From contig JBBELK010000397.1 of assembly GCA_037783545.1 (NCBI GenBank), positions 372,001 through 436,000 on the forward strand: a stretch of 64,000 nucleotides of DNA, in the 5' to 3' direction. Both the position numbers and the translations under genes were made by a program. Below, piece after piece: positions 3,201 to 64,000 of the stretch. The stretch's first letter is position 1. Every line of letters begins with the position of its first letter. The notes below the pieces were generated by a model that saw only the letters and a list, made by a program, of their open reading frames with translations, was not told the DNA's origin and did not search any database. The stretch comes from Henricia sp. BOLD:AAB3569 (taxonomy: Eukaryota; Echinodermata; Asteroidea; Spinulosida; Echinasteridae).

Positions 3201-6200
3201 ATAAAGAAATAATGTTGTTGTTAATTTTTATTGCATCTTCGGCAACTAAGGCCATTTATGCCATCAACTATACAGTTTTAGCTTTAAATATACTTTTTAT
3301 TATAAACTTGAGATGACGAAGAAGGAGTTGCAGTTTTAGAAGTGGGAGGAAAACCCCAGAGATATTACACTAAACCTATGGGACAACTGTCAAATATTCC
3401 AAGATAAAGAAATAATGGCGAGTGTGTATGGTATTTATACCAAAAACAGTTTAAATTTGGTTGAAGAAAATCTACAATAACTTTAGTTCCAAGAATCCTC
3501 CAGCAATGATAGTTTTCAAGATTTTTAACATGAAAGAAAAGAAATTGATTGGGGCACTCCGCAACTTCGGGGAATCTGCCCATTTTATATGCATTTTTTC
3601 ACTTCCAACTTAGATATTTACATCAAATTTGCACTTGATGGTCGACATGTAAATACCAAGTTCTTTTAATAAGAATTTCCCAAATTATTTTCAAACATGG
3701 AGGAATAACCATGCCTCAACAAAGACCTACAATTTGTATTTTTCCTTCATTTACTAAACAAAAACAAAAACGGCTGCAAATTGCAAGGAAATTTAAACAC
3801 ATTTTGTTAGTGTAAATATGTTGCTTTCAACTTCTCAACTTGTGTGTATTAAACCTTCTAAATATACAGCAAAATATTCGTGAACGACTTCCGGTGAAAC
3901 GGTAGTTCGACAGTCAAAAATGAACATGGCAATTTTACAAACGAACAATACCATGAATACGGCTAATCGCGTACCGTTGTATGCGCACTTCACTTCCTGG
4001 TTTTCCGAGTCCCGGAAGCAAAATGCTTCGCGCGCAATTCAACACAGAGATTTAAAATTTGTCGTCTTAAAAATGTACCCCAGAACGCGAGTTTTATCGT
4101 AAACCACCCATCGTTGACTGCAGTGAACGAATGCGATTTTCTTACCGGCTTGGAGAAGCAAATCTAAGTTCTTTCTTGCGTCGGAAGCCATCGTTTTTTT
4201 TTACCCCTGTTTGTAGTGCGAATACATCGAGAATACACAGAGCATAGAAATGTGCACGTTAATTTTTGCAAACAACGCAAACACATTGCATGCGTTCGTG
4301 CCAAAATATCGCTACGCACAGTAAATTGCCCGGAAGTAATTAAACACTACGATACTGAAAACGGGCGAATTACGCACCTCAGATTTTGTGTTTTTTTTTA
4401 TTGATGTTTGGTGCATGAATTGAACAATTTGATTAAAACAAACATTGAGATTTGAGATTTAGTACAAATAAATCATTCACTTTTTTTAATCAAAGAAACA
4501 GCGACAAACACGCTTAGGAGCAAATGGGAAAAAGTAGTCCCACAGCTACCCACAGTGTGGTTTTTACCGTTGCGACTTTATTTTGTCTTTTAAAGATTGT
4601 GGCGCTAAAAATGAAACTAAAATTGTAAAAATGCAGCTTTAGCACGAAATAGTCGGGGGGAAAGTGAACACAAATGTATTAAAGGCACAGGATCGTCGGC
4701 AATGCGCGCCAAATTCGTGCCACGAAAGGCATGAATTAAGCTGCGTATTTCGTGGCACGAATTTTGCGCGCGCGCGCGCATTGCTGACGAGCCTGTGCCT
4801 TTAACTATAGGACTTTGCTTGCATACGATTAGCTATGATCCGTGAAACGTCATCAGTCAAAAATATGTTTTTTCTTGACAAAGTAAAAAACGTTTGGATA
4901 TTTTTACTCGGATGGCGGCGCGCCACAAAACAACGATAATTAGCGACTCCAATTGGCGACTAGTACAATACGATTAATAAACGAAACGCACTCGTATTTT
5001 ATCGTAATGATTAAGTGATTTTTTTTAGGAATTATGACCAAGGGACCGCCGGGGTGAATTAATTCGATACAAATGTGTTCAAATGTCCATGATGAGTTTG
5101 GGTCAGTAACGCATATAAACAACTGCAGGGCTGATTGCACCAGCCTCTGTAAGAGCCGCTAAGGCAGGGTGCGCCACTCTGCCTGAGAACCTGCGCTTCT
5201 ATGGCTGTTGTTGAGACGCGCGGCTCCAGAGGTCAGCTTGTCCCACGCAGGCTGAGGTTGAAACTCCAAAAGCTCGTAAAACTGCCAAACACTTGCAAAT
5301 ATTGTGTTTGCAAAGTGCAAACATCACCTAAAAGGCACAGGCTCGTCAGCAATGCGCGCGCCAAATTCGTGCCACGAAATACGCAGCTCCATGTAGCAAA
5401 GGCATATGGAGCTGCGTATTTCGTGGCACGAATTTGGCGCGCGCGCAATGCTGACGAGCCTGTGCCTTGAACTTCACGTTTGGTCGTTTTAAAGAAAAGT
5501 TTGCAGGTGTGGACATCAAACATTAGCAAACACCAGCAAACGGCGTGTTTGCCGATGTTTGGTCATGCAGCTACTGGCAAATACTGGCAAACAATCTGTT
5601 TGCTCGTGATTTAATGACCGTTCCGAGATTGTTTCTGTTTGCCAATGTAGAGACACAAAAAACATCAGCAATTAAACATGGTGATATCTAATGGCATAAT
5701 TTTAGGTATAAAGTCAAATTATCATAATAATGAATTATCAAAAGGTTTGTCATCTATCGGTGACCGTAATAGGTAAAGGTCAATGCTCTTTTTCATGTAA
5801 ATTGGGATTATCTTCATGGACCTAAATGCTGGTAATTTTTTTCATACAATATTTTGGCAACAAAAGTGTCCACTTAACCCATAAAAACGGATTTAAGTGA
5901 TACAGTTTACTAGCCGGTTCCTTAATAATGTAGACAATCATTTTCTACAAGATATTGAGTTCATGGAGCCATGGATGGTTCGTTCGGTTAGTCGGTTCGA
6001 TACATCTGCAGGTAGCTCGTATATAGTTATCGTCCAACTGAAATATTTATCGAGATTGCTTATTGTAATCCACGATACCAAAAATGAAACAACTGCTTCG
6101 GTTCTTTCTTAGCGTTGTGTTGTCTTTGGCTGCCTCCGAATGTAAGGTGTATACGTCTTAATTTCTTGATACACGAAACAATAGACGCTAGGTACACGGT

Positions 6201-9200
6201 CTGACGATTGTGGGCCTATGTTTGTAGCTCCGACAGCAGTCAGCAGACGGCGCTAAAACAATGAATTACAGTCGCAAGTTAAACCTTTGCGACGACCAGC
6301 CAATCTTAATGAAGTTGAGCGTGACGTGCCATCCAGTTTTCCTTTATAGCCAATCAGCGTGCAGTAAATTTCGAGCAGGTTGCAATAGACTGCCGAAGTG
6401 TGACGTGCGTTGCCATGGCGATTGGATCTAAACTATCATGGCCGTCGGGAAAAGTACCATTAGAAAATCACTGGGATACGGTTGAGTGATTTTTAGTTTA
6501 GATCCAATTGCCTAGGCAACCAACAAAAGGTGACGTATTCACTTCGGCAGTCTATTACATAAAACGGTACCAATTTCAACTTGACAAAATAATAAATTTG
6601 CAAAAAAAAGTTTATATTGATATTTTCAACGAGATATTGACATATCACTACACAATAAGACTGAAGCAAAGGAAATATTATAGAATAAAAATTATGAAAA
6701 GATTAATAAATTAATAAAGATTTTTGTTATTCATTTTTATTCTATAACTTCCTAATGGTGTGCTTTTAAGAAAAAAAATCTCATTATAAAGCTGACAACT
6801 TCAGCATAATCTAAAAATAAATATTTTCTTGTTCATTTTTGAAAACAATAACATATTTTCATTTGCCAGTTCAACCTCTTTCAATGTTTGTCCAATTTTG
6901 TTAAATACTATAGGACACCAGCAAGAAGCACTATAAAAACAATTTTAGTTATATTATTTGAAGAAACATTCCTAAAAGTACACACAAATTTAGCTGATTT
7001 AACACACCTGTAAGGTAACAAAAAGTTGGGTCAACATTTTGATCCAACAATCTTTATCAGAACTCATTATAGAAACAACACTATAAAACTTGACCGAGTG
7101 CTTTGAGCACTGATGGTACATGTAGCTTTGTATTTTATTGGTAAGTGCATTGCATGTCAAAACATCTGGGAAAACTTCCTTTCAAAATGAAACTTCCTTT
7201 TTGCCTTGAAACAAATTCCCAGGGAAACATTTCCTACGGCCTTTTTAATATTTGCACTCTTCGTGTTTGTCAGAATACCACACAGGAATTACTTCCACAG
7301 GCAGGTTTCACACACAATGGGACAAAAACGGTTCCTCTGGCTACCATTTTGTTGTACATTTTCCCTGTCGGACAGTTGATTGTAAAAAATCTAGGCCTCT
7401 ACTACATTTATACTTGTTGGTAGCATGTATATGTACATGCAGTGCTCACAACAAGAATTTATCCTGTGCTCAGTAGACTGTGCGTGACTTATGTGTGTAT
7501 TGCAAACTAGAGTCTCTGACTAGGCGAGGGGAGGGGAGTGCTTCAGAAATTTAAGCACCAAAAGTGCTAGTGCAAAATGAATCAATATCTGAACTTGTAG
7601 CACATTATCTCGTATTTTATTTCATGTACACCCCTTAGGCCTTTGCCCTCCCCACCCCCTGGAAAAATGACAATTTTCAGTAGCTAGAAATAAAAGAAAA
7701 GAAAACAGGAAAAGGAAATAAAAGGGTCATGGAGTAAGAAAGGAAAAGTGCTTTTAAAAAAAAAGGAAATTCCAGAAGTAAACTGGGGTAACAAAACTGA
7801 TAACTTCCAGTGTTTTGGAGCAGAAGTTACAATCCAGCCCAGCCCAACCCACTAATTTCATTGCACAAACCAAACCTTCCCAAGTCAATCAAAACCAAAC
7901 ACTTTCCACGCAGCTGAAGAACCCATCCCAAAAACACAGAGCACTTGCCTCATCAAACTCAAACAAGACCTGGGATCGATTTCACAAAAGTTAAGACAAG
8001 TTCAGTGCATCCTAATTCCCATACCAATGTCCCAAGATAAGAAGAGTGACCCTTCCTAAGACACGTCTTAGCGCTTTGTAAAATTGGCCCTATGTATTTA
8101 AATCAAGTACATGTATAAACTGTCTCGCTAGTTAGTACAAATTATCAATTAGCCACTGAGACCTGGGATCGACTTCACAAAAGTTAAGACGAGTTCAATG
8201 CATCCTAATTCCAATAACAACCTCCTAAGATAAGAAGAGTGACCCTTTCTAAGACGCGTCTTAGCACTTTGTGAAATTGGCCCCTGGTCATGTATTGAAA
8301 TCAAGTTACAGGTCTCGCCAGTTAGTACAAATTATCAACTAGCCACTGAGACCTGGAATCGATTTCACAAAAGTTAAGACAAGTTCAATGCATCTTAATT
8401 CCCATACCAACACCCCAAGATAAGAAGGGTGACCCTTCCTAAGATGCGTCTTAGCGCTTTGTGAAATAGGCACCTGGTGTTGGAGTTTGGCTAGATGGAA
8501 ATTGTTAGGGTTAATGTACAAGGGATCAGGCCTCCAAATTCATTTTCAAAAGGGCACGGCAATTTTCTCTTAGTAAAGGGCACCTGAAATTTGTGTTAGA
8601 ACTTTTTAAGGGCAACAAGGCAAAAGCATAGGGCACTGATGGCAATTTGCCGTGGTGCCGTGGGTTATGTCAAGGCCTGCGGGATCAAAATAATTTTGAA
8701 GACTAAAACCACTTACAGGCCTCTTTTGGTGTCTCAATCTTACTGAAGTCAACCTCACACGTCTCCTGCAGGCACGATGTTTCTACGTCTTCTATCAAAT
8801 ATTCTAAGGCAGTTGGCAATCCGAAGGCCCCTGGTGTGAGAGGCATGTTGTAGAGTGACTGTACAACGACAGATGGTCCATTTTGAATCACGTCTGGTTT
8901 TATCTAGAATTATTTTAAAGGGGAAAATTCAACCACATTAGCTACAATTTTGGCTTTTTATAAATATGATCTGAAATGACTGCAGAAACCAAAAACAGAA
9001 CTGCAGTCAAATTATAAAGAAAAAAATATAAGGATAAATCTGATATTTGACGATATTAATGACTAATTAAGAAAGCAATGCTAATAGGTCTATTTGTTGA
9101 AATTTCTTAATGTTCTGACGTCAGTAACACGAGGTCAACACGGATAAACACGTTTTTGAGTAGGCAACAGGTTTAACAGTGGAAGGTCACTTTAAATCAG

Positions 9201-10493
9201 TGTGGGAAAAACTTTTCACACTTTTACACAGAGCATTGTCAAGTGATTGTCAAGTGTCACAGCAGGAAGGTTTTGAAATACAGCACAGTTGTGGAAAGAC
9301 ATCCACGCTCAAAAGAGCTCAACATTCTTAAAGATACATTCTCTGTGCCAATTTCACATTGAATAATAAATCTACAATAATCTAGAAAATCCCCAGGACT
9401 TCCCAAATGGGTGTGACAAAAGTGAATTGCATCTTTCAATGAATATTGGGATACCATTAACAGAAACATTTGAATACCAAGCTAAAACTGTAATTTGTTA
9501 AAATATGCAAATATTAGTCTAATAAATATTAATGAGAACACCTGTTCTAATAAATATTCATTAGGATTTGTAAGAATATTAATCTTAATGAATATTTAAA
9601 GCAATATTCATTTCAATATGAATATCTATGACAATACTCATAAAATATTAATTTGATAAATGTAGGTATACAGTATAAAAACCTGACAGATGCAGAGTCT
9701 GGAAAGAATCAACAAAAATATTTTAGTTCAAGAAAATGTTACCGTTGTTCAACCATCCCTCCCCCCTTCCCCTTAGACTCAATAAAATCCTTATGCCTAG
9801 CGTACATCAACATTGCAACTGGAAGTAACTCAACTGATCAGTTGCTGTCGATGTGTGCATAGCGCGCTCATCGACAGCAACTGATCAGTTGCGCAACAAG
9901 TGGCAACTGGGAGCATCCAGCCATGTTTACATTTCCAGAACGTGCACATCGACATGGCAACTCGGTAAAGACTAGACCTTGCAACTGGAAGCAACTGTTG
10001 CTTGCAGTTTCTGTCGATGTGCACGCACGTGATCAGGTGCACGCATGTAACTGACAGCAACTAGTTGCAAGTTTGCGTACATCGCGACGCAACTGACCGC
10101 AACTGGGTACAACTAGTTGCCAGAAAGTAGAAAATGAGCAACTCGCGGCAACTGGGATTTTTTAGTTGCCAGTAGTTGCAAGTACGCGCACATCAACCTT
10201 TTTAAGCAACTGATCAGTTGCTTCCAGTTGCCGCGAGTTGCTTCTAGTTGCCGGAAACGCAAGTTGCCACTAGTTGCTTCCAGTTGCAATGTCGTTGTAC
10301 GCTAGGCTTCAGAGCACTTTTCTTATACCTCGACAAATGTTAGTTCCGAGAGAGCCGACCGATCTAACCGCAGATGTCTCAACAATCCTGGGTGAATCTC
10401 TGGACTAGGTAGGTCATCTTCATATTTTTCGTTGTCTTCAATCATCTGGTATGGTTCTTGTTTAAACACGAGATCCAGTCCAATGCACGCCAT
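226..10493 (-). CDS. ELF: ETS transcription factor, E74/ELF1-2-4 family (N-terminal exons, partial)
   Basis: Four coding exons on the minus strand (10493-10329, 8903-8717, 1175-1029, 294-226) join in phases 0, 1, 1 and encode about 190 residues before the gene leaves the window at its left edge; an alternative first exon lies at 4191-4146. The start MACIGLDLVFKQEP resembles the vertebrate ELF1/ELF4 start with its (D)LVFEF/LIFEF motif. Exon 3 has the DIMAAQALLDIS segment that matches the EAAEALL-MESP block of ELF proteins, and exon 4 has LPPSPADSGVASD, close to a motif I recall from Drosophila E74. ELF proteins are nuclear activators or repressors that bind GGAA sites; the DNA-binding ETS domain is encoded near the C-terminal side in this family and is not in the window. 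The neighbouring SLC25A15, also the neighbour of human ELF1, supports the call. Which vertebrate paralogue it equals (ELF1, 2 or 4) cannot be told; it is probably the single pre-duplication gene. Confidence 0.72.
1029..1175 (-). CDS. ELF: ELF coding exon 3
   Basis: Acceptor TTCTCCAG, 147 bases, donor GTCAGTTG; phases 1 and 1. Encodes SHACDIAGSGQDIMAAQALL and a Ser/Thr-rich tail. This is the common exon for both starts and carries the block most like vertebrate ELF proteins. Confidence 0.72.
1273..1982. repeat. Diverged fragments of a large TIR element
   Basis: 1273-1430 (TTGGAAATTTGTACA, then TTCAGAACAACTGAAAC) and 1915-1982 (CCCCCTTTACCGTGGAAAG) match the two arms of the element at 50612-51245. 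This copy is broken and contains no gene. Confidence 0.6.
2595..3434. repeat. Two MITE remnants in ELF intron
   Basis: ATTACCATGCACGGACACCC (2595-2614) is repeated inverted at about 2739-2758. A second inverted pair, ATACCATACACCCTCGCC (3053-3070) and GGCGAGTGTGTATGGTAT (3417-3434), bounds a longer element that is related to the copy at 44862-45052. No coding sequence is visible from 2160 to 3880. Confidence 0.6.
3880..4345 (-). promoter_or_regulatory. Candidate internal ELF promoter with ETS-type sites
   Basis: Around the alternative first exon the sequence becomes richer in CG and holds ETS-type cores: ACTTCCGG at 3887-3894, CCGGAAGC at 4012-4019 and CCGGAAGT at 4330-4337. Such sites are typical of TATA-less promoters and would allow the ELF protein to act on its own gene. 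Promoter function is inferred. Confidence 0.4.
4146..4191 (-). CDS. ELF: ELF alternative first coding exon (short form)
   Basis: ATG at 4191-4189 opens MASDARKNLDLLLQA and a phase-1 GTAAG donor, which is the phase needed to join exon 3 at 1175. The joined start resembles the short vertebrate ELF2 isoform, which begins MATSL and has LDLLIRAVEAS just before the same EAAEALL block. The exon sits in a CG-richer stretch with several ETS-type sites, as expected for its own promoter. Confidence 0.6.
4681..4802. repeat. Palindromic MITE, GGCACAGG family, copy 1
   Basis: Almost the whole 122 bases fold on themselves: AAAGGCACAGGATCGTC pairs with GACGAGCCTGTGCCTTT, with inner CGTGGCACGAATTTTGCGCG arms. 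TTAA stands at both borders, the usual target of piggyBac-type elements. Copies 2 and 3 are at 5331 and 49573. Confidence 0.85.
5138..5187 (-). repeat. Fragment of GGCAGGGTGCGCC repeat family
   Basis: CACCAGCCTCTGTAAGAGCC and GGCAGGGTGCGCCACTCTG recur at 35195-35262 and, inverted, at 32398-32545 and 55600-55745. Confidence 0.7.
5331..5469. repeat. Palindromic MITE, GGCACAGG family, copy 2
   Basis: Near-perfect 139-base foldback with outer GGCACAGGCTCGTCAGCAAT arms and an inner GCTGCGTATTTCGTGGCAC stem. The reading frames here are mirror images caused by the fold, not genes. Confidence 0.88.
6383..6557. repeat. MITE with X-box-like arms, copy 1
   Basis: About 175 bases bounded by AATAGACTGCCGAAGTG and CACTTCGGCAGTCTATT. 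Each arm has a GTTGCC-type palindrome (GTTGCCATGGCGAT and ATTGCCTAGGCAAC) and a TGACGT-like word. Copies 2 and 3 are at 36268 and 53226. Confidence 0.82.
7968..8476. repeat. Tandem triplication of a ~190-base unit
   Basis: Three consecutive units start near 7968, 8160 and 8347, each with GATTTCACAAAAGTTAAGAC, GATAAGAAG, and a terminal GTCTTAGCGCTTTGT. Each unit is itself a small element with inverted GTCTTAG/CTAAGAC ends, so a MITE appears to have been amplified in tandem. It lies in the ELF intron. Confidence 0.82.
8717..8903 (-). CDS. ELF: ELF coding exon 2
   Basis: Acceptor TTCTAG, 187 bases, donor GTAAGTGG; enters in phase 0 and leaves in phase 1. Encodes IKPDVIQNGPSVVVQSLYNM followed by an acidic stretch with YLIEDVETS, at the place of the acidic N-terminal activation region of vertebrate ELF proteins. 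Confidence 0.72.
9795..10308. repeat. AGTTGC-rich inverted-repeat element, copy 1
   Basis: Bounded by CCTAGCGTACATC and its inverse at 10296-10308. The interior is almost entirely variants of GCAACTGGAAGCAACT and CTGATCAGTTGC in both orientations. It ends 20 bases from the ELF exon 1 donor. A second copy is at 37562-37930. Confidence 0.8.
10329..10493 (-). CDS. ELF: ELF coding exon 1 (long-form start)
   Basis: ATG at 10493-10491 opens 55 codons ending in LTFVE, followed by a GTATAAGA donor (phase 0). The acidic segment EDNEKYEDDLPSPEI follows the ELF-like start. A possible acceptor (TTATTAGCAG) lies about 40 bases upstream, so a non-coding leader exon further right is likely. An AGTTGC-rich mobile element ends only about 20 bases beyond the donor. 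Confidence 0.7.
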
Positions 10494-16458: not shown

Positions 16459-17236
16459 TTATTTCTCATATAAATTTAAGCAATGTTTAGTTTGGATTCC
16501 TTACATAGTTCTGACTAACCTGGCAAAATACACTATTTACATGTTGTTAACTATGGCTATATCATATGCTCAACTGAATCGGTCTGCGTATGGTACAACA
16601 TATCACGTCATTAATTAAATGACACACCCATCCAGCAGTACCATACCATTTGGCTAACACACAACTTCCTAACTCGTCCACACATCCCATTATTTTACAT
16701 TTAGAAACTTCCTTTCATTCCCCCATGTTCTTACCTTGTCCAACAAACTGTCAACGGAGAATTGTCAATATCCAACAACCAGACAGCTCAAGAAGAACAG
16801 TGTTTGCCTGAAATTTGCTTGACGTTCCAACAGAAACCAGCCCATCGCCCACTAAAAAGTTGACGCACAGTCACAACACCCATACCATAAATTTCGTGAC
16901 CCTATTAAAAGTACCTCCCACATACGTCACCGCAGCACACATACACAGCCTTGCTACCTGTTCAATGTTTATGGAGCCTATTACATATGCAAATTCCTTT
17001 TGTCCTATCTTGCTTCTCATTGGCTCATTTCTCAATTGGTTTCTCCATATATGGAAATATCTTACGATTGAATGTTCAAAGCTGATATTCGAAATGAAGA
17101 AAGAAATAATGTTTTAAGCGATACTTTAAATAATATTTTAGCTGCTTTTTCTCAATAGCTAACATTATTAGCGATATCGACAAGTACGACAAATTATTCT
17201 TTATATTGTGTAAAGTCACTATTGCCGTCAGCCAAC

Positions 17237-17308
17237 GGCCCCATGGTGTAACGGTTAGCACTCGAGACTCTGAATCTCGCGATCCGAGTTCAAATCTCGG
17301 TGGGACCT
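17237..17308 (+). tRNA. tRNA-Gln (anticodon CTG)
   Basis: The 72 bases match animal tRNA-Gln: box A TGGTGTAACGGTTAGCA, anticodon stem CGAGA/TCTCG around the loop CTCTGAA, T arm CCGAG-TTCAAAT-CTCGG and box B GAGTTCAAATCT. A run of eight or more T follows within four bases, a Pol III terminator. The acceptor stem is GGCCCCA over TGGGACC, giving one C-A mismatch at pair 3-70 where a T-A pair is usual. The tRNA delivers glutamine at CAG codons. It may be functional or slightly decayed. Confidence 0.85.
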
Positions 17309-44000: not shown

Positions 44001-44432
44001 TTTTAAAGGTATGAATTCTGTTCACTGGTCGCCACTGAGATGCCGTGTGTTAAGTCTATGGAACAGAGCAGAACAAGTTTAAGTATTTTCAAGGAAATTG
44101 TTGAATGTTTTTCACTCCTAAAATCACTTTCCTCTAAAACATTTACACGTTTTGGTGGTTATCAAGTAATTATAAGGAGAATAAGTGGCGACCAGTAAAC
44201 GGAATTCTTTCCGTTTTCACATTTCAAATACAATGTATTAACCCTTTCATGGGTTGTGTCACACTTTGCTGATCAAAAATGTACAAAGAGCCTTTCATAT
44301 ATTAAAGTGACATTCACAGTTTTGTATGGGGAATGTTGCTTATACCTGTGTGAAACGTCTGACCAAGCATGTTTTGCCAACACCCGCATTGCCGATGAGA
44401 ACAACTTTAAATAGATATTTGTAATCCTCCAT
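40851..44432 (-). CDS. RAB30: RAB30 small GTPase
   Basis: Four coding exons on the minus strand (44432-44346, 43838-43755, 42857-42674, 41092-40851) give 198 residues, against 203 in human RAB30. RAB30 is a Golgi-associated Rab that cycles between GDP and GTP and recruits trafficking effectors, also to autophagosomes. All nucleotide motifs are intact: GNAGVGKT at 14-21, switch I GATIGVDF with Thr39, DTAGQE from residue 62, NKID 120-123 and ETSAKES from 148. The start [20 protein letters not shown] and [16 protein letters not shown] are RAB30 hallmarks. The C-terminus CCRM is a dicysteine prenylation signal; human RAB30 also has a CC pair. The 5' UTR exon runs up to 44506 after TTATTTCCAG. The hypervariable tail is short. 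The gene faces PCF11 head to head, as in human. Confidence 0.96.
41165..42600. repeat. ACTTGACTTGGGACTCGA minisatellite with two nested MITEs in RAB30 intron 3
   Basis: Minisatellite pieces at 41165-41209, 41651-41826 and 42535-42600 are separated by copy 3 of the ATAGTTCCGAG MITE (41210-41650) and by a TIR element 41827-42534 with ends TTTAAAGGTACACACCGGC and GCCGGTTTGTCCCTTTAA. Confidence 0.85.
42674..42857 (-). CDS. RAB30: RAB30 coding exon 3
   Basis: Acceptor TCACACAAAG, donor GTAAGTGC, phases 0 and 1; encodes [20 protein letters not shown] through [14 protein letters not shown]. The ATG-initiated frame that continues upstream of the acceptor is intron read-through. Confidence 0.95.
42951..43262 (+). 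mobile_element. tRNA-SINE interrupted by a MITE
   Basis: AGGTCTAGTGGGTATACAGC (box A) and GAGTTTGAGCCCCAC (box B), then GTGTCCATGGGCAAGA, match the SINE at 54092-54395. Between them at about 42995-43188 sits a MITE with inverted CACACAATGGAATTA ends, sharing family with 48428-48644. Confidence 0.75.
43284..43591. repeat. MITE, ACACACTATCGCGGAAAAA family
   Basis: ACACACTATCGCGGAAAAAT and GATTTTTCCGCGCTAGTGTG are inverted about 300 bases apart; the centre has palindromic TTGAACTTTGACC words. It lies in RAB30 intron 2. Confidence 0.8.
43755..43838 (-). CDS. RAB30: RAB30 coding exon 2
   Basis: Acceptor TTTTTTGACAG, 84 bases, donor GTAATT; encodes [15 protein letters not shown] and [10 protein letters not shown] with switch I. 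Confidence 0.95.
44346..44432 (-). CDS. RAB30: RAB30 coding exon 1
   Basis: ATG at 44432-44430; encodes 29 residues with the whole P-loop, ending VRRFTQ. Donor GTATAAGC, phase 0. Untranslated sequence continues to an acceptor at 44507. Confidence 0.95.
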
Positions 44433-45637: not shown

Positions 45638-45929
45638 ATTTTGAAATTGAAGTAAGAAGGTGCTATTTCAATTTGTCTTATTCTATTTGCATGTCATGGG
45701 CCATGGCATAAAAAAGGGCATGATGAATAAAAACACGTTGTTATCAGCTGTTCACCACTTTCTACAGCATTTCAACATGGAGGTAGATGATTTCAAAGTG
45801 CACAGCTGACATCCGTAATAAATCTTTAGAGTTAGACAGTTTCCCGGAATTACAATAATTGCACGGTTTCAAAATACTGCATTCCAAGGACAAAAACAAT
45901 GCACAGGCAGCTTGTGCACAAAACCATCT

Positions 45930-46472
45930 GCCAAAAATGCCCGGAAGTTTGCAAGCGCGCCACCGCACAACACACACGTTCTGCATGTCCGGGAAAAACT
46001 ATGACCTCATTATCACGTGACCTAAACGGCGCTGACGAAATGCTTTGTGCAACAATTCCATATAAGAGACTCTCTGATTGGATATTACACTTTATATAGA
46101 ACAACATTATTCTTTGTACTTTATGTACTACGTTAGTTTTAACAACATTTATTATTATGTTTTAAAATATGTAGTGTATTTTTAAAAAAATCTGATATTT
46201 TTAACAATTAACCTTTTTAAAACAAATATCATGTAACCACGAGTCAAGCGACGATCGCGCAAATCGTCCAATCATAAGCCTCGTTAGTAAGCACTGTTCC
46301 GCCCGCAGCACGTAATTTCAGTTGCACTAGAAAAATAGGCGAGGACTTGGGTGCCCTCGCGATGTCCTCCACATTTTGCTTTAAAAAACCAATATTTTCC
46401 CCACGATCCTGTTTATTTCTTCATTAATACTCTCCGCTAGAGTCTACAGCCTTCCGAGGAACAACATTCAAC
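45930..46472. promoter_or_regulatory. Candidate bidirectional RAB30/PCF11 promoter
   Basis: About 540 bases left of the PCF11 ATG and 1.4 kb right of the RAB30 5' UTR exon. It holds an ETS/NRF-2 type CCGGAAGT (45941-45948), an E-box TCACGTGAC (46013-46021), CCAAT boxes at 46266 and 46387, and GC-richer sequence with GCGATCGCGC. No TATA box is seen. Sequence from about 46335 to 46472 is probably the PCF11 5' UTR. The RAB30 leader exon is expected here but its donor could not be fixed. Confidence 0.5.
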
Positions 46473-46625
46473 ATGGCAGAAGCAGTAAGGAAGGAGTACG
46501 AGACGTCTTTAGCCGACCTGACCTTCAACAGCAAACCACTTATCAATATGTTGACGATGTTGGCCGAAGAAAACGTGAAACACGCTCGGGAAATCGTCCA
46601 AGTCATCGAAACCCGACTGCAGAAG
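46473..46625 (+). CDS. PCF11: PCF11 coding exon 1
   Basis: ATG in AACATGG context; 51 residues with the first CID helices (SLADLTFNSKPLINMLTMLA). Donor GTTACT, phase 0. The N-terminus is shorter than in human. An antisense frame here is a shadow. Confidence 0.93.
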
Positions 46626-49600
46626 GTTACTTGTTTTGGATAAATAATGTCCGCGTCTATTTTAGATAAATATTTTATTAAATTTTACATCTTAAAATCA
46701 GTATTTTGCAGGAAAAGGATAATTTGTTTTTGACCTTCGTAATTTTTAAAAAATTCAATATGGCGTTTTAAACGGGAGGCTAAAATTATAGAGGGCGCCC
46801 TTCAAATTGTTAATGGCTTTGGAGTTGCTTGCTTTAACCAGTTAACATGTTGAATATTCACCTGGTATTTTTTTCCTTTGTGCCTGTTATGATTAGGACT
46901 TGGATCCTATTACATTTTGCAAGGAAATTATGCGAAAATACATTACTAACATGAAAATGTAGGCTAACTAAAAAAAAAAAGGTATTTTTTTCGTATACAT
47001 TGAACAAAGATTTTAAGTAAATTACCTCCTGGAATCAAACCTCCATGTAATTTTAAGATATACTTCCCACTTGCACTTTTGTCGCAAATGTTGCTTTTCT
47101 GTAGAAAAATCACGTTTTCTTCTTCAAAAATTGCCTTCAGTTAGTGCATAAGATAACCATTCACACGCGCGCGCAGCGCCTTCTGTAGTCGCGCTTACGC
47201 ACAGACCGCTCGCCACGTCATTTTGTGCATTACTTTATGCAGTAATTTTATCATTTATATATCTCAGAAATGCAACATTTGCGACGGAAGTGTCAGTGGG
47301 AAGTAAATCTTAGAATTGAATAAGCTGTCAATTCCAATATATAAATTCACCGAAATCCGTGTTCAATGTATATGAAAAGAAATCCAAAAAAAGTGTAGGT
47401 GGGTGGGAGGGTTAACAATTTACAAATAAAGTGACTAGCACAAATGCCTGCATAGTTTTTAACTTGCTAGGTCCGTAACCTCGCCAGCCTATTCAATGGC
47501 GAGGTCACGGACCTGGCGACTATACCGACATTTCAAAATAGGTGGGCAGTGAAAACATGTTTTTTTAGGAGAAGGGAGAGAAGTTTACTGCTGTTGTACT
47601 AATTATAACAGAATTTCACAGAGTAAAGTTGGCAAGCACATTATAAAAAAGGTCAGAATGTTGGGAATATTCAGTTATGCATTGATATACTCGCACTGAA
47701 CTACTTTTTGTAAATCATTGGGGGGACTACATTTTTTTTCCTTCTTTTTAAGAAGATTAACTTTTTAGCATAATACCTATCTTTGAATATTCTGCATCTT
47801 TTGCCTCCTGACATCTGCCATTGTGCCATGACTTTTCTTTTACTGGAGTTAATAAAATATTCAGGCTTGATCAAGTGTTCTTGATGTGTTCATTTATATT
47901 GTAGTATGGACTATTAAAAGGGTATAACAAAAATGTGAGATTTTAAATTCTGGTTTTGTAACAAACTCTTAATTTCAAAGATTTTTAAGGAAGCCTCAAA
48001 TCCGCAATATATAGAAGGATTTTTACCTGGACATCACTTTGAAATCCTGTTTACAAAAGTGTATTTTTTATTAAAGAACTTTATGGTTTTATTATTGATT
48101 GATATGTAATAAAGAAAACAAAAGTGATGTCCAGGTAGGAAATCTTTACCCTTTTGTTAATTTATTTTAGTTCTCGGAATTGGGAAAAAGGTTATCATAC
48201 ATGGACACTACCTGGGACCCCATGCACAAGAAAACAAATAAAAAATTCCCTCTTAATTTTGTTAAATTACATGTACATGTAGTATTTTTACATGTTTTAT
48301 TGGTCATGGCCAAACAAAATTCTCTGTGTCCATGCACGGTTATCTTGCTTTTCACATTAACAAATTTTGTCTTTCGTTATTTGTTAATAAATTCAGTGTT
48401 GGTTAACTCCCTTTCTGAAGATGCAAAAGACCAGTTCAGGGTTTTTGCACACAATGGAATTAGCATACTCATGTATTTTTGAGTACAGCGGGCCTTTAAA
48501 ATGTATAGATTGGTTCCCGAGTAGATGGCATTCTGCAATAAGTGATAGGATTAGGAACCGGTCCATAGTATGTCAAAGGTCCGCTGTATTAAAAATACAT
48601 AAATATGCTAATTCCATTGTGTGCGAAAAACCTTGAATAGGTCTATTCAGATTGGAAGACAAAATGTATAAATCGTTATTTGAACATGCATTGCATCATT
48701 GCAGATGTAAAGATCGGCAGCATAAGACAAAAAATCCGCAATTAAAATTAACGTTGAAACTGCCTGGATGCGTCACACACACAATTTGTGGCGAACTTGA
48801 AATTTTGGATGGCTGCTGCATCATTGGTGTTTTCCGGATTTCATGGTGCTTGCCAGACTTGACAGCTGAAGCGACGCCATGGCAAATGTCGTCTTGGAAT
48901 GCTGGGATCTACCAAGGGTCAACTACCCGGGATCAGCTCGTCGCCAATGACAGTTGTTGCTGACCGTTTTTGCTTGCCATGCAATATCTGCGCTGCGCTT
49001 TGCAAACTAGCAGCTGTACTCAAACTGAACAAAGCAGACAGTGTCACTTGTTGCAAATTTGAAAGCTGTATTGGAAATACAGCTACCACATTTTTCATCA
49101 AATGTGGGTCACAAAATTAAGTTTGGTCCTAAATACGGCATCGAGCTATACAAGTGAACAGCGACAGAAATATTTAGCTGCTGTTTAACCCAATAGCTAT
49201 TGACTGAATATGTGAAATGGCTACAAAGGATAAGTCTCCAGAAAAAGAAATCTTCTTGAATCCTGGGCTTAAATGCATAACCCAGAGGTGTACAAAAACA
49301 CAATACATGTTCAACAAATACATGTATTTCCCTTATGAACTCACAACTACATGTACAGTGGGAGTTAGACGGAGTCTATGGTGCAGTGAAGCGAAATATG
49401 CATCCAAGCAACAATCTAGATTCTTTTAACGATGCTGATTGCTCCTGTTACACACCGGACTGTTGCAGTGTCTTTATAGTGACGAGACACATTTAGCACT
49501 AGACTTGGAATTTATTTGTTGCATTTTGGGATAAACACTGCAGTTGGGATTATGATATTACTGCAGCTCATTTCCTTTAAAGGCACAGGCTCGTCAGCAA

Positions 49601-61600: not shown

Positions 61601-64000
61601 TGAATTTAGGTGTCTTAAGTTTCGTGTGTCTCAAGATACAAGTTATAACACAAATTTTTATTGCAACAGAAAACTAAGACATCGATGAAGTCTTAGTTTT
61701 GAAGCAGGATATTGTTTACCGGTAGTAAAAGTACTGTATGATTTGTGTACCCTGATATTTGAATGAACAGATTTAGTGGACCTTTTGTGCTCTTTTTTTC
61801 CTACATAATAGGCTGAAAAGCAGCTGCATTCTGGTGAATTGACGCACCAACAACATCAAGAACTTTTACGGGAATTGTATGAACTCCACGAGATTCAAAG
61901 ACAACGAAAGGAAGAAGAGTTTGTTAAGCGACATCCCGAAGATCCACATTTAAAAAGGCATTTCCTGGATGATCCAGGAATGGGCTATGATCCAAGACGA
62001 CGTTTGGATCCCAGAAAAGAGGGATCTTGGGCCCAGGAGAAGGACATTGACCGCAGAAGGTTTCCTGCGCAGGACATTGATATGAGAGTCTTTGACTCTG
62101 GGCATCCGGCACACGGACCAACTAAAAAAACAAAAAATGAGCATCCGGAATTTGAGCCCATTTCTGATGAGGAAATACCACTGCCAAGTGAAGATAAAGA
62201 CGAACGGACAAGGAATCCTGTCCAGCAGGATCGCGATGACAGAGTTAGGGTTCCTCCAATGGCTCCAAATCAAAATGAAACCAAACTCCTGCCGCCACCT
62301 TTAAAATCTATACTAAAAACAAGAAAGCCTGTACCCCTTGACAGTCCCCTATCGCCTGAACCAAGCGAGAAATGTGGTAACGATTCTAAAGTCAAAACAG
62401 ATGGAGAGGAAACTACGACGTCTGAAGAAAAAGAAACAGATGTTGACGTAAAGGAGGAATCCGAAAAAATAATTGACAGTATGTACTCCCCTGTCTCGGA
62501 TAGCCCTGATGATGTACTTGCAGAAGATGCTCCTCCCAAAGACGTTGATCAACAGAGTGTTGAAAAAGGCAAGAGTAAGAAAAAGACAAAGAAGAAGAAA
62601 AAGAAGGGCAAAGGTGAAGCCGAAGTCGTGGTTGAAATTTCAGCATTTGAGGAGAACCTACAAATTAAACCTCCGATTTTTAATGAGAAGAAAAAGCAAC
62701 CACTTATGGACATGGACGAGCGCCGAAATTCAACCGATAATGAGGCAGGTGATGTGCTTCCAGCACCATTCCGAGAGGCAGATGACATAGGGGATTTGTT
62801 TCCTTCCGGAGGGGATCGTGATGAGCGTCGAGGACATGAAAGCAGTGGAGACAGTTCCAAAGAGGCACCTCCATCAAGTCCTAAACGAAAAGCACAAGAT
62901 GAAGGTCACTCCAGAGAGAACATAGCAGCAACTGATCAATTCAAGGAGGCACATCATAGGGACCCAAGAGTTTCAAAAGGGCCTGCAGATATTGACCATC
63001 GGCCACCAGGGGATGGTTATCGTGAAGGTTTTCCCGAGAGAGATCAGAGAAGTCGTCCCTACAGAGGTAGACATCCGAAGGAACTGCCATCAAGGGAAGG
63101 CGTATTTAGAGAACCACCACCAAGAGATTCCGCTTTTCATGAGGGTTCTCCAAGAGAAAGCTTGCTTAGAGATCGTCCCCCAAGAAGTCCATCAAGGGAA
63201 AATGAATCTTGGGGAGATCCAAGACTTGGCCCAATTCGAGAAGATCGATTCGGAGAAGGCCCGGATCGAGATGGTTCACCAAGAGAAGGCCCATTCAAAG
63301 AAGGGCCACCAAGGGAAGATCACTTCAGAGATTATCAACCAAGAGACGGTCCATTCAGAGAAGGTCCCCCAAGAGAAGTCCAATTTAGAGGTCCTCCAAG
63401 GGAAGCCTCCTTTAGAGAAGGCTCATTTAGAGAAGGTCCTCCAAGGGAAGGTCCATTCAGAGGTCCTCCAAGAGATGATCAATTTAGAGAAAGTCCACCA
63501 AGGGAAGGCCCATTCAGAGAAGGTCCTCCAAGGGAAGATTCTTTTAGAGGCCCTCCAAGGGAAGGCCCATTCAGGCAAGGCCCTCCAAGAGAAGGTCCCT
63601 TTAGAGAAGGTCCACCAAGAGACGGTCCATTCAGAGAAGGTCCTCCAAGGGAAGGCTCTTTTAGAGAAGGCCCTCCCAGGGAAGCCTCTTTCAGAGAGGG
63701 TCCACCAAGAGAAGGCTCATTCAGAGAAGGCCCACCAAGAGAAGGCCCTCCAAGGGAAGGCCCTTTCAGAGAAGGTTCCCCCAGGGAAGGTTCTTTCAGA
63801 GAAGGTCCCCCAAGAGACGGTCCATTCTGGGAAGGTCCTCCAAGAGAAAGTTCTTTTAGAGAAGGTCCACCAAGGGAAGGCTCATTCAGAGAAGGTCTTC
63901 AAAGAGAAGGTTCTTTCAGAGAAGGTCCTCCAAGGGAAGACTCTTTCAGAGAAGGTCCTCCAAGGGAAGGCCCTTTCAGAGATGGTCCTCCAAGGGAAGG
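46473..64000 (+). CDS. PCF11: PCF11, pre-mRNA cleavage complex II / transcription termination factor (partial, 3' end beyond window)
   Basis: Eight coding exons (46473-46625, 51521-51646, 53866-54051, 56461-56697, 58248-58628, 59296-60443, 60933-61245, 61812 to the right edge) encode 1577 residues so far. PCF11 binds the Ser2-phosphorylated CTD of RNA polymerase II and couples 3' end cleavage to termination. Residues ~9-140 form the CTD-interacting domain (DLTFNSKPLINMLTMLAEEN, YLTDSIIKNMRGAYLEAF, RQALFKLRMTW, KKLYALD, LDPAWPI, IHVNPKF). A Q-rich helix (LIKKQEQLLQLQQKRLEFEL) follows, then poly-Q/poly-A and a Pro-rich segment, NRDPRVARDPRLARRDPRLR (DPRL motifs), an RS-like segment (SRSRSRSPVSRRSHSPRS), and the vertebrate-conserved VHIPKELSYEK plus LHSGELTHQQHQELLRELYE. 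The last 700 bases encode a FREGPPREG decapeptide array where vertebrate PCF11 has its FEGP repeats. The zinc fingers and CLP1-binding region are not in the window. Confidence 0.95.
46980..47384. repeat. MITE, GGTATTTTTTCC family, copy 3
   Basis: Ends GGTATTTTTTTCGTATACAT and AATGTATATGAAAAGAAATC; the interior is the inverse of copy 2 with high identity (GGCAATTTTTGAAGAAGAAA is shared, inverted). In PCF11 intron 1. Confidence 0.88.
47385..48427. other. PCF11 intron 1, no gene seen
   Basis: AT-rich sequence; 47466-47532 is a copy of the TCGCCAGGTCC palindrome (GGTCACGGACCTGGCGACTA). Nothing else was recognised. Confidence 0.5.
48428..48644. repeat. MITE, CACACAATGGAATTA family, copy 2
   Basis: AGACCAGTTCAGGG with CACACAATGGAATTAGCATA on the left faces TATGCTAATTCCATTGTGTG and CTTGAATAGGTCT on the right. 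Inner GGTTCC words are shared with the copy inside the SINE at 42995-43188. Confidence 0.82.
48645..49572. other. PCF11 intron 1, open frame without homology
   Basis: A 103-codon frame at 48652 and a moderately GC-rich block (48770-48970) stand out from the AT-rich background, but no splice-supported exon or known domain was found. It may be an old mobile-element remnant. Confidence 0.35.
49573..49719. repeat. Palindromic MITE, GGCACAGG family, copy 3
   Basis: TTTAAAGGCACAGGCTCGTC and GACGAGCCTGTGCCTTTAA form the ends of a near-perfect foldback with a short GGCATGGAGCTGC centre; TTAA at both borders. Confidence 0.9.
50037..50404. repeat. Foldback element, GTAGTCTAGTACTTTTCGAG
   Basis: CTTGGGACCAGTATTGTAG on the left and TTCTTGGGACC on the right; ATAAGTTACGATTACA and CAAACTCGCC arms are inverted at 50280-50370, and AAGTACTT/GAGTACTC words fill the middle. 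Confidence 0.75.
50612..51245. repeat. ~630-base foldback element
   Basis: TAAAGCCCGCCGCGGCCGCA and GTGTGCGGCGGGCTTA ends; long inner arms (GAAATTTGTACA, TTTCTAAAAACC, AGAAATAAGTTT) are inverted around about 51010. Fragments of the same family are in the ELF intron near 1273-1982. Confidence 0.8.
51521..51646 (+). CDS. PCF11: PCF11 coding exon 2
   Basis: Acceptor TACTGTACAG, donor GTTAGC, both phase 0; encodes AKPSEKLPTLYLTDSIIKNM and GAYLEAFAPNIIHTFCGVFE, the central CID helices that contact the CTD. Confidence 0.94.
53226..53403. repeat. MITE with X-box-like arms, copy 3
   Basis: GCAATAGACTGCCGAAGTG on the left; the more decayed right end has CACACTTTGGCTGTCTATT. Arms GTTGCCTAGGCTATGG and ATTACCAAGGCAAC. 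In PCF11 intron 2. Confidence 0.78.
53866..54051 (+). CDS. PCF11: PCF11 coding exon 3
   Basis: Acceptor CGCTCTTCTAG, donor GTAAGT, phase 0; encodes VDEKTRQALFKLRMTWSSYF, KKLYALDLKV and AAIHVNPKFIKK, the end of the CID. Confidence 0.95.
54092..54395 (-). mobile_element. tRNA-derived SINE, antisense in PCF11 intron 3
   Basis: Read on the minus strand: box A TGTGGTCTAGTGGGTATACA, box B GGGTTCGAGCCCCAC, GTGTCCGTGGGCAAGACACT, body with GCGCTATATAAGTATCC and a tail CATTATTATTATTA. The first SINE family differs in its body. Confidence 0.83.
54558..55044. mobile_element. ~485-base long-TIR foldback element
   Basis: AACTCCTCAAAAAAAGTTCG and CGAACTTTTTTTGAGGAGTT are the ends; arms of more than 150 bases (AAGTCAAGTTTGACTGACGA, CAGGGCTTTCC..., TTGGGGGATGTGCAG) match in inverse. 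In PCF11 intron 3. Confidence 0.85.
55600..55745 (+). repeat. GGCACTTCAGGCAG repeat with 18-base triplication
   Basis: GGAGGCACTTCAGGCAGA is repeated three times in tandem (about 55609-55662), then GTGGTGCACCCTGCCTCAGT and CTTGCCACAAGAAGTGGCC follow, as in 32398-32545. Confidence 0.8.
56461..56697 (+). CDS. PCF11: PCF11 coding exon 4
   Basis: Acceptor CCCATCTCAG, directly followed by a second CAG (tandem acceptor, so one Gln may be optional). Encodes a Thr/Ser-rich linker and a Gln/Lys/Leu coiled-coil. Donor GTGAGT, phase 0. Confidence 0.93.
56722..57232. repeat. TTAA-flanked MITE with GCGAAGTGG array, copy 4
   Basis: Starts AAAGGCAGTATACATCATTG, 25 bases after the PCF11 exon 4 donor, contains CATTTCGCCCCAAACCACTT units and the inverse array, and ends GTATACTATCTTTAA. 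Confidence 0.9.
57233..57527. repeat. MITE, GGCCCGTCTACACTATCG family
   Basis: GGCCCGTCTACACTATCGAA and TGATAGTGTAGACAGGCC bound about 295 bases, with repeated CTGTCAGGCAA/GTCTGTCAGAC words. It abuts the preceding MITE directly. Confidence 0.82.
57795..58045. repeat. Foldback with GGGGGCCATCCA arms
   Basis: CTGTACGTCCGCTATAACTG-GGGGCCATCCAGTGCCATG on the left faces CATGGCTGGCAGTGGATGGC-CCCCAGTAATGGCGGACGTG on the right. The 71-codon frame inside is a by-product. Confidence 0.75.
58248..58628 (+). CDS. PCF11: PCF11 coding exon 5 (poly-Q/poly-A, Pro-rich)
   Basis: Acceptor CCCAATTTCAG; continues the coiled coil (ALELKQKNEELIHQQQALQH), then QQQQAAAQQQQ, nine Ala, and a long Pro/Met/Gln segment with PPPPVPPFNLGQ. 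Donor GTAAGT, phase 0. The CAG/GCA tracts may be length-variable. Confidence 0.93.
58629..59295. other. PCF11 intron 5, no element recognised
   Basis: Contains two partly similar stretches (AAGTTACTTTTTGTGAAAAA near 58760 and AAGGTACTTTTTGTGAAAAA near 59114, each followed by GTTTTTGTTTT and TTGGGTGTAAGACCAATTTT), that is a ~100-base direct duplication. Nothing else was seen. Confidence 0.55.
59296..60443 (+). CDS. PCF11: PCF11 coding exon 6
   Basis: Acceptor TTATCTAG; 1148 bases with the DPRL motifs, Ser/Thr/Pro/Lys-rich disordered sequence, RS-like repeats and many KKE/RRDE charged blocks. Donor GTATGT after CCTAAAAC (phase 2). Several long frames on both strands here are shadows of the biased composition. 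Confidence 0.95.
60933..61245 (+). CDS. PCF11: PCF11 coding exon 7
   Basis: Acceptor TTTTTTCTTCAG; encodes VPEREREKLSKDKR, RRWSIDPGVHIPKELSYEKH and SFILEQ, matching the SVDANLQIPKEL region of human PCF11. Donor GTAAGT, phase 0. Confidence 0.94.
61256..61497. repeat. GTTGTAGTCGAGTCC element in PCF11 intron 7
   Basis: CCAGTGTTGTAGTCGAGTCC and the inverse-like GGACTTGATTACAACTCTG bound 240 bases with loose ACTTGTGA units. The ends match the minisatellite elements in MMAA introns. It starts 11 bases after the exon 7 donor. Confidence 0.72.
61812..64000 (+). CDS. PCF11: PCF11 coding exon 8 (partial, open at right edge)
   Basis: Acceptor CTACATAATAG; one frame stays open for 2189 bases. It holds AEKQLHSGELTHQQHQELLR, acidic and Lys-rich stretches (KSKKKTKKKKKKGKG), KRKAQDEG, and then from about 63267 the FREGPPREG array, which continues past position 64000. 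Confidence 0.92.
63267..64000 (+). repeat. 30-base coding minisatellite (FREGPPREGP/S decapeptide array)
   Basis: Twenty-four Phe-anchored units are visible, most of 30 bases following AGAGAAGGTCCTCCAAGGGA-AGGTCCATTC. Variants include FRG (shortened), FKEG, FRQG, FWEG, FRDG and LQREG. All length changes are multiples of three, so the frame is kept. Confidence 0.95.

Follow-up and report, generated by a model that had tools for sequence, protein, structure and literature searches.

Whether a single ELF gene of an invertebrate deuterostome already offers the choice between two N-termini that is realized in vertebrate ELF2 is the question raised by a locus of the sea star Henricia sp. BOLD:AAB3569. 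The DNA analyzed here, in the following termed the window, comprises 64,000 nucleotides (contig JBBELK010000397.1, C397, positions 372,001 to 436,000) and includes the N-terminal part of an ELF/E74-like gene, with an additional candidate first coding exon in its second intron. In humans, the activator ELF2A is expressed from promoters P1 and P2, while the repressor ELF2B originates from its own promoter P3 together with exon IB and carries 19 unique residues, the removal of which mostly abolishes the antiproliferative effect and lowers apoptosis (PMC5371273, parts covered). According to the same source, the isoforms bind to their own gene in regions downstream of P1 and P3, and the ETS domain of the vertebrate ELF members is located centrally. 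For Drosophila E74 (Eip74EF; E74A and E74B), two promoters giving two N-termini joined to a shared C-terminal ETS domain have been described (PMC3393682, PMC9225820, parts covered), in agreement with what the earlier note on this DNA had assumed for promoters and N-termini. E74 is not named in the covered parts of a study on repressive domains of fly factors (PMC9890238). Among echinoderms, a single elf gene of the sea urchin is the counterpart of human ELF1, ELF2, and ELF4, and the covered parts of this report mention no ELF isoform (PMC6992634). Among the open-licence papers listed, none was found to describe a short ELF from an invertebrate deuterostome.

Results

Gene Model and ETS Domain

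As the ETS domain only starts about 1.7 kb past the edge of the window, the gene model was completed with the adjoining 30 kb of the contig. Following this model, the gene is read from the minus strand, with exon 1 from its ATG (10329-10493, beginning with the acidic MACIGLDLVFKQEPYQMIEDNEKYEDD) and exon 2 (8717-8903) being specific for the long form, exon 3 (1029-1175, including DIMAAQALLDISP) and exon 4 (226-294, beginning with SLPPSPADSGVASD) being common, and exons 5-8, among them those encoding the ETS domain, lying outside the window at contig positions 371463-369195. The resulting long frame of exons 1-8 encodes 352 aa, and a short frame combining the alternative exon with exons 3-8 encodes 250 aa, both remaining open up to a stop directly after the ETS domain.

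When compared with PDB, the ETS part in exon 7 is closest to ELF-2 (3.3e-37) and ELF-1 (2.1e-34), well ahead of the next protein, SPDEF (1.3e-17), and the Pfam Ets family matches the gene at 2.8e-36. Judged by this predicted domain, the gene is of the ELF1/2/4 (E74-like) type, which bears out its previous identification as ELF/E74. The model ends with LVYKFCEIPKNIVNVTCS and the stop immediately thereafter, hence the ETS domain is C-terminal and not central as in the vertebrate ELF members, and on the basis of this domain the gene is classed with the ELF/E74 type rather than with the vertebrate-type ELFs. In this regard, it resembles Drosophila E74, where different N-termini are likewise combined with a common ETS domain at the C-terminus and a stop directly after it, a likeness in the predicted layout of promoters and N-termini.

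The first 117 aa of the long form, encoded by exons 1-2, make up an acidic segment with 22 D+E versus 8 K+R, which in the short form is replaced by 15 other residues. No Pfam family was found for either of the N-terminal parts, and the initial 43 residues of the short form did not give any match in PDB up to an E-value of 10. Exon 3 additionally contains an in-frame ATG in good context at position 1137 of the minus strand (GACATCATGG, MAAQALLDISP), which could give a still shorter N-terminus.

The Alternative First Coding Exon

Within intron 2, the minus strand from 4191 to 4146 reads ATGGCTTCC...CTCCAAGCCG/GTAAGA (slash indicating the splice site), corresponding to 46 nt that translate to MASDARKNLDLLLQA plus one base. 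The donor CCG/GTAAGA leaves phase 1 as does the exon 2 donor CCT/GTAAGT, and either of them is accepted in frame by exon 3, which starts at 1175 (acceptor TTCTCCAG/CTCATG). Accordingly, the observation that had drawn attention to this locus, a 46-nt exon with a donor phase suitable for skipping exons 1-2 and entering exon 3, is confirmed with respect to sequence, length, frame, and donor. With a generic donor matrix, a score of 5.4 is obtained for the alternative donor, compared to values of –0.4, 3.2, 5.0, and 6.0 for the donors of exons 1, 2, 3, and 4, respectively, and only two of the 446 GTs in the intron, the alternative donor itself counted, reach at least this score. When the 201 bp surrounding it (4100-4300) are compared with the whole genome, the locus itself is the single match.

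The ATG is in a good context (A at –3, G at +4) and is preceded by an in-frame TAA 12 bases upstream, which leaves the alternative exon no role other than that of a first coding exon. Its interpretation as an internal part of a longer upstream frame is ruled out by this stop, with no AG being present between TAA and ATG. Four further ATGs are found before the start of the exon, at 4291, 4286, 4245, and 4227, the second of which opens a 40-codon frame overlapping the alternative start out of frame. These ATGs count against efficient translation of the alternative exon, but would be absent from a transcript beginning below about 4227. They also speak for a quite different reading of the locus, in which an open frame and a donor-like site would have arisen by chance in a CpG-rich intronic element, such as an enhancer or an unrelated promoter, and no coding isoform would be produced.

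Resemblance to the ELF2B Start

The human ELF2B-specific exon is taken here to end with LDLLIRA. For assessing how easily such an ending is obtained, every combination of an ATG and a GTRAG donor of phase 1 spaced by 8-40 codons in the whole window was scored against this heptapeptide. Among the 47 combinations, five of which belong to the minus strand of intron 2, the alternative exon scores 25 and the next best 15. In 400 introns simulated with a first-order Markov model, a score of 25 was never reached (maximum 18), with 1.9 candidates per intron on average versus the five in the real one. When aligning the whole start with the presumed human ELF2B start, by comparison, the alternative exon is equalled by 27 of its 2000 shuffles, hence the resemblance is borne by the LDLLxxA ending. 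The likeness of the product to the start of the short ELF2 isoform is thus strong in the seven residues ending the alternative exon, which agree beyond chance with the heptapeptide taken for the human protein, but weak in the remainder of the start. The peptide ETENVET, translated from a primer given in PMC4307332 (parts covered), agrees with the sequence presumed for human ELF2A at this junction. A full-text literature search for LDLLIRA itself did not retrieve any occurrence.

The similarity to the vertebrate gene extends to its anatomy. As in the case of ELF2A/NERF-2 and ELF2B/NERF-1, two N-termini, the long one being acidic, would belong to one ETS gene, and a small coding exon is placed in phase downstream of the acidic and before the common exons, with the LDLL..A ending, as in the presumed ELF2B exon, lying directly at the junction. 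Unlike ELF2B, the number of unique residues is 15 instead of 19, and the short form is a prediction from sequence. Since the starts differ outside of LDLL..A and the comparison covers one species, a real but lineage-specific first exon might be considered in which LDLLxxA has arisen independently of ELF2B; this is very unlikely in view of the same position relative to acidic and common exons and the same ending right at the junction. Orthology of the alternative exon with vertebrate ELF2 exon IB is most likely, as suggested by the combination of peptide ending and exon position.

CpG-Rich Surroundings and ETS Sites

The alternative exon is embedded in a CpG-rich stretch (3801-4500) representing a putative promoter. 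Once the palindromes at 4679-4804 and 5302-5498 are masked, its CpG o/e of 1.61 is the highest among 3165 segments of 700 bp, and it is CpG-rich in 200-bp bins as well. The possibility that the peak is merely a product of palindromic repeats can be rejected, as it survives this masking. Palindromic MITE-like elements are present upstream of the alternative exon at 4679-4804, 5302-5498, and 6409-6520, the first two being CpG-rich and having long identical arms in common.

Three ETS sites are found in the same region: ACTTCCGG at 3887-3894 on the plus strand, containing CTTCCGG at 3888, CTTCCGG at 4012-4018 on the minus strand, and ACTTCCGG at 4330-4337 on the minus strand, about 140 bp upstream of the alternative ATG. 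The total of CTTCCGG in the window is unremarkable, with five sites observed versus 2.99 expected and 18 of 100 shuffles holding at least five. Three of the five (3888, 4012, and 4330) fall within 260 bp of the alternative exon, and when five positions were drawn randomly, three came to lie within 449 bp in 0.14% of the trials. The longer ACTTCCGG occurs three times in the window versus 0.95 expected (6 of 100 shuffles), and two of these sites are beside the alternative exon. Taken together, CpG maximum and site cluster fit a putative CpG-type promoter with ETS autoregulation, reminiscent of ELF2B with its separate downstream promoter and ETS sites nearby.

For the reading of the exon as a chance frame, it can be added to the upstream ATGs that CpG-rich stretches are not rare in this DNA, as a 400-bp scan without masking gives 14 of them with CpG o/e above 1.3; the strongest is the one at 3651-5200. 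Against mere chance, phase, donor, peptide ending, position in the intron, CpG maximum, and ETS cluster jointly agree, rendering a non-coding element quite improbable. The preferred interpretation, which we consider probable, regards the alternative exon as the ortholog of ELF2 exon IB, with a promoter of its own and giving rise to a short ELF devoid of the acidic segment, which would probably be a repressor or competitor.

A Candidate Sin3-Interaction Helix

Splicing of the alternative exon to exon 3 would yield NLDLLLQA/AHACD across the junction (NLDLLLQAAHAC). The Mad1 peptide binding to the PAH2 domain of Sin3 is VRMNIQMLLEAADYLERRER (PMC8997856, parts covered), with L12, A15, and A16 being essential and the motif being phi-Z-Z-phi-phi-X-A-A-X-X-phi-n (PMC7948954, parts covered; related motifs are listed in the covered parts of PMC10163088). 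Hence, the splice might build a Mad1-like Sin3-interaction helix (NLDLLLQAAHACD) by which the short ELF would actively recruit Sin3/HDAC. The equivalents of the three essential residues are in register (NLDLLLQAAHAC versus NIQMLLEAADYL), and against the 13-residue Mad1 core the short form scores 26 and the long form 10. Shuffling gave this value in 2 of 4000 cases for the short and in 12 of 4000 for the long N-terminal part, and none of the 66510 six-frame 13-mers of the window attains it.

These figures belong to a pattern that was found after the fact, and the unspliced reading already scores 22. In addition, the peptide departs from the full consensus at two positions, the first Z being D and the last phi, a bulky hydrophobic residue, being C, and is therefore not filed as a Sin3 PAH2 type I ligand of the Mad1/Pf1 kind. 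The presumed human ELF2B start has AV in place of AA and scores 10. Searching the literature for a link between ELF2 and Sin3 did not give anything specific, and the covered parts of PMC4307332 and PMC11904542 do not report a relation of the two. Like in Mad1 (MXD1), the peptide is near the N-terminus and holds the three essential residues (NLDLLLQAAHACD versus NIQMLLEAADYLE), but ELF belongs to an unrelated protein family, and the likeness is one of sequence. Considering both sides, active Sin3 recruitment appears rather unlikely, and it would refine the preferred interpretation of a short repressor or competitor and not exclude it. Besides, AAQAL in exon 3 fits the Sin3 motif AA/VXXL of KLF proteins (PMC10977429, parts covered) and would be common to both isoforms.

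Genes Neighboring the ELF Locus

Beside the ELF gene, the window holds, at 20471-64000, genes for a mitochondrial carrier and a MeaB/MMAA-like GTPase, both assigned by Pfam, RAB30 (PDB match to Rab-30 at 1.1e-49, the next at 2.7e-34), and a Pcf11-like gene, for which one of the four open frames scanned matches the Pfam Pcf11 helical domain. A CpG-rich segment at 45901-46800, which includes a ACTTCCGG site (45941) and precedes the first coding exon of RAB30 (near 44393, minus strand) by about 1.5 kb, is perhaps the promoter of this gene. The end of the Pcf11-like gene, at about 63100-64000, is repetitive and coding-like, being open in more than one frame, and the sequence at about 17235-17305 reads by eye like a tRNA gene. 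In humans, carrier, MeaB/MMAA-like GTPase, RAB30, and Pcf11-like genes are neighbors of ELF1, ELF2, and each other, with ELF1 next to the carrier gene SLC25A15 and ELF2 near MMAA. Given these ELF1/SLC25A15 and ELF2/MMAA neighborhoods, the arrangement in the window suits an unduplicated locus, and its gene order may represent an old animal linkage.

Discussion

The proposed working of the locus starts from two sites of initiation. From the upstream one, the 352-aa protein would be produced, the first 117 codons of which specify the acidic segment. The CpG-rich promoter with ETS sites in intron 2 would drive transcription of the 46-nt first coding exon, which after splicing to exon 3 would result in the 250-aa protein, its common part and ETS domain being those of the long form. 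Missing the acidic exons 1-2 and keeping the ETS domain, by analogy with the anatomy of human ELF2, the short form would recognize the same sites while having no acidic activation segment and hence, we infer, function as repressor or competitor of the long form. Via the ETS sites around the short-form start, the gene would probably be autoregulated.

A more far-reaching scenario would see in the ancestral single ELF gene an activator/repressor switch operated by promoter choice, the short form carrying a Mad1-like Sin3-recruiting helix across the junction and vertebrate ELF2B being a relaxed remnant thereof; at present, we regard this as unlikely.

Of the mammalian pair, ELF2A is the activator and ELF2B the repressor, and the literature covered traces the pair no further than from human to zebrafish. 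Should the same exon be part of the single ELF gene of an invertebrate, the switch would be older than the vertebrate duplications. If this is true, the 15 residues would represent a short conserved peptide with a directly searchable partner, Sin3 being the first candidate.
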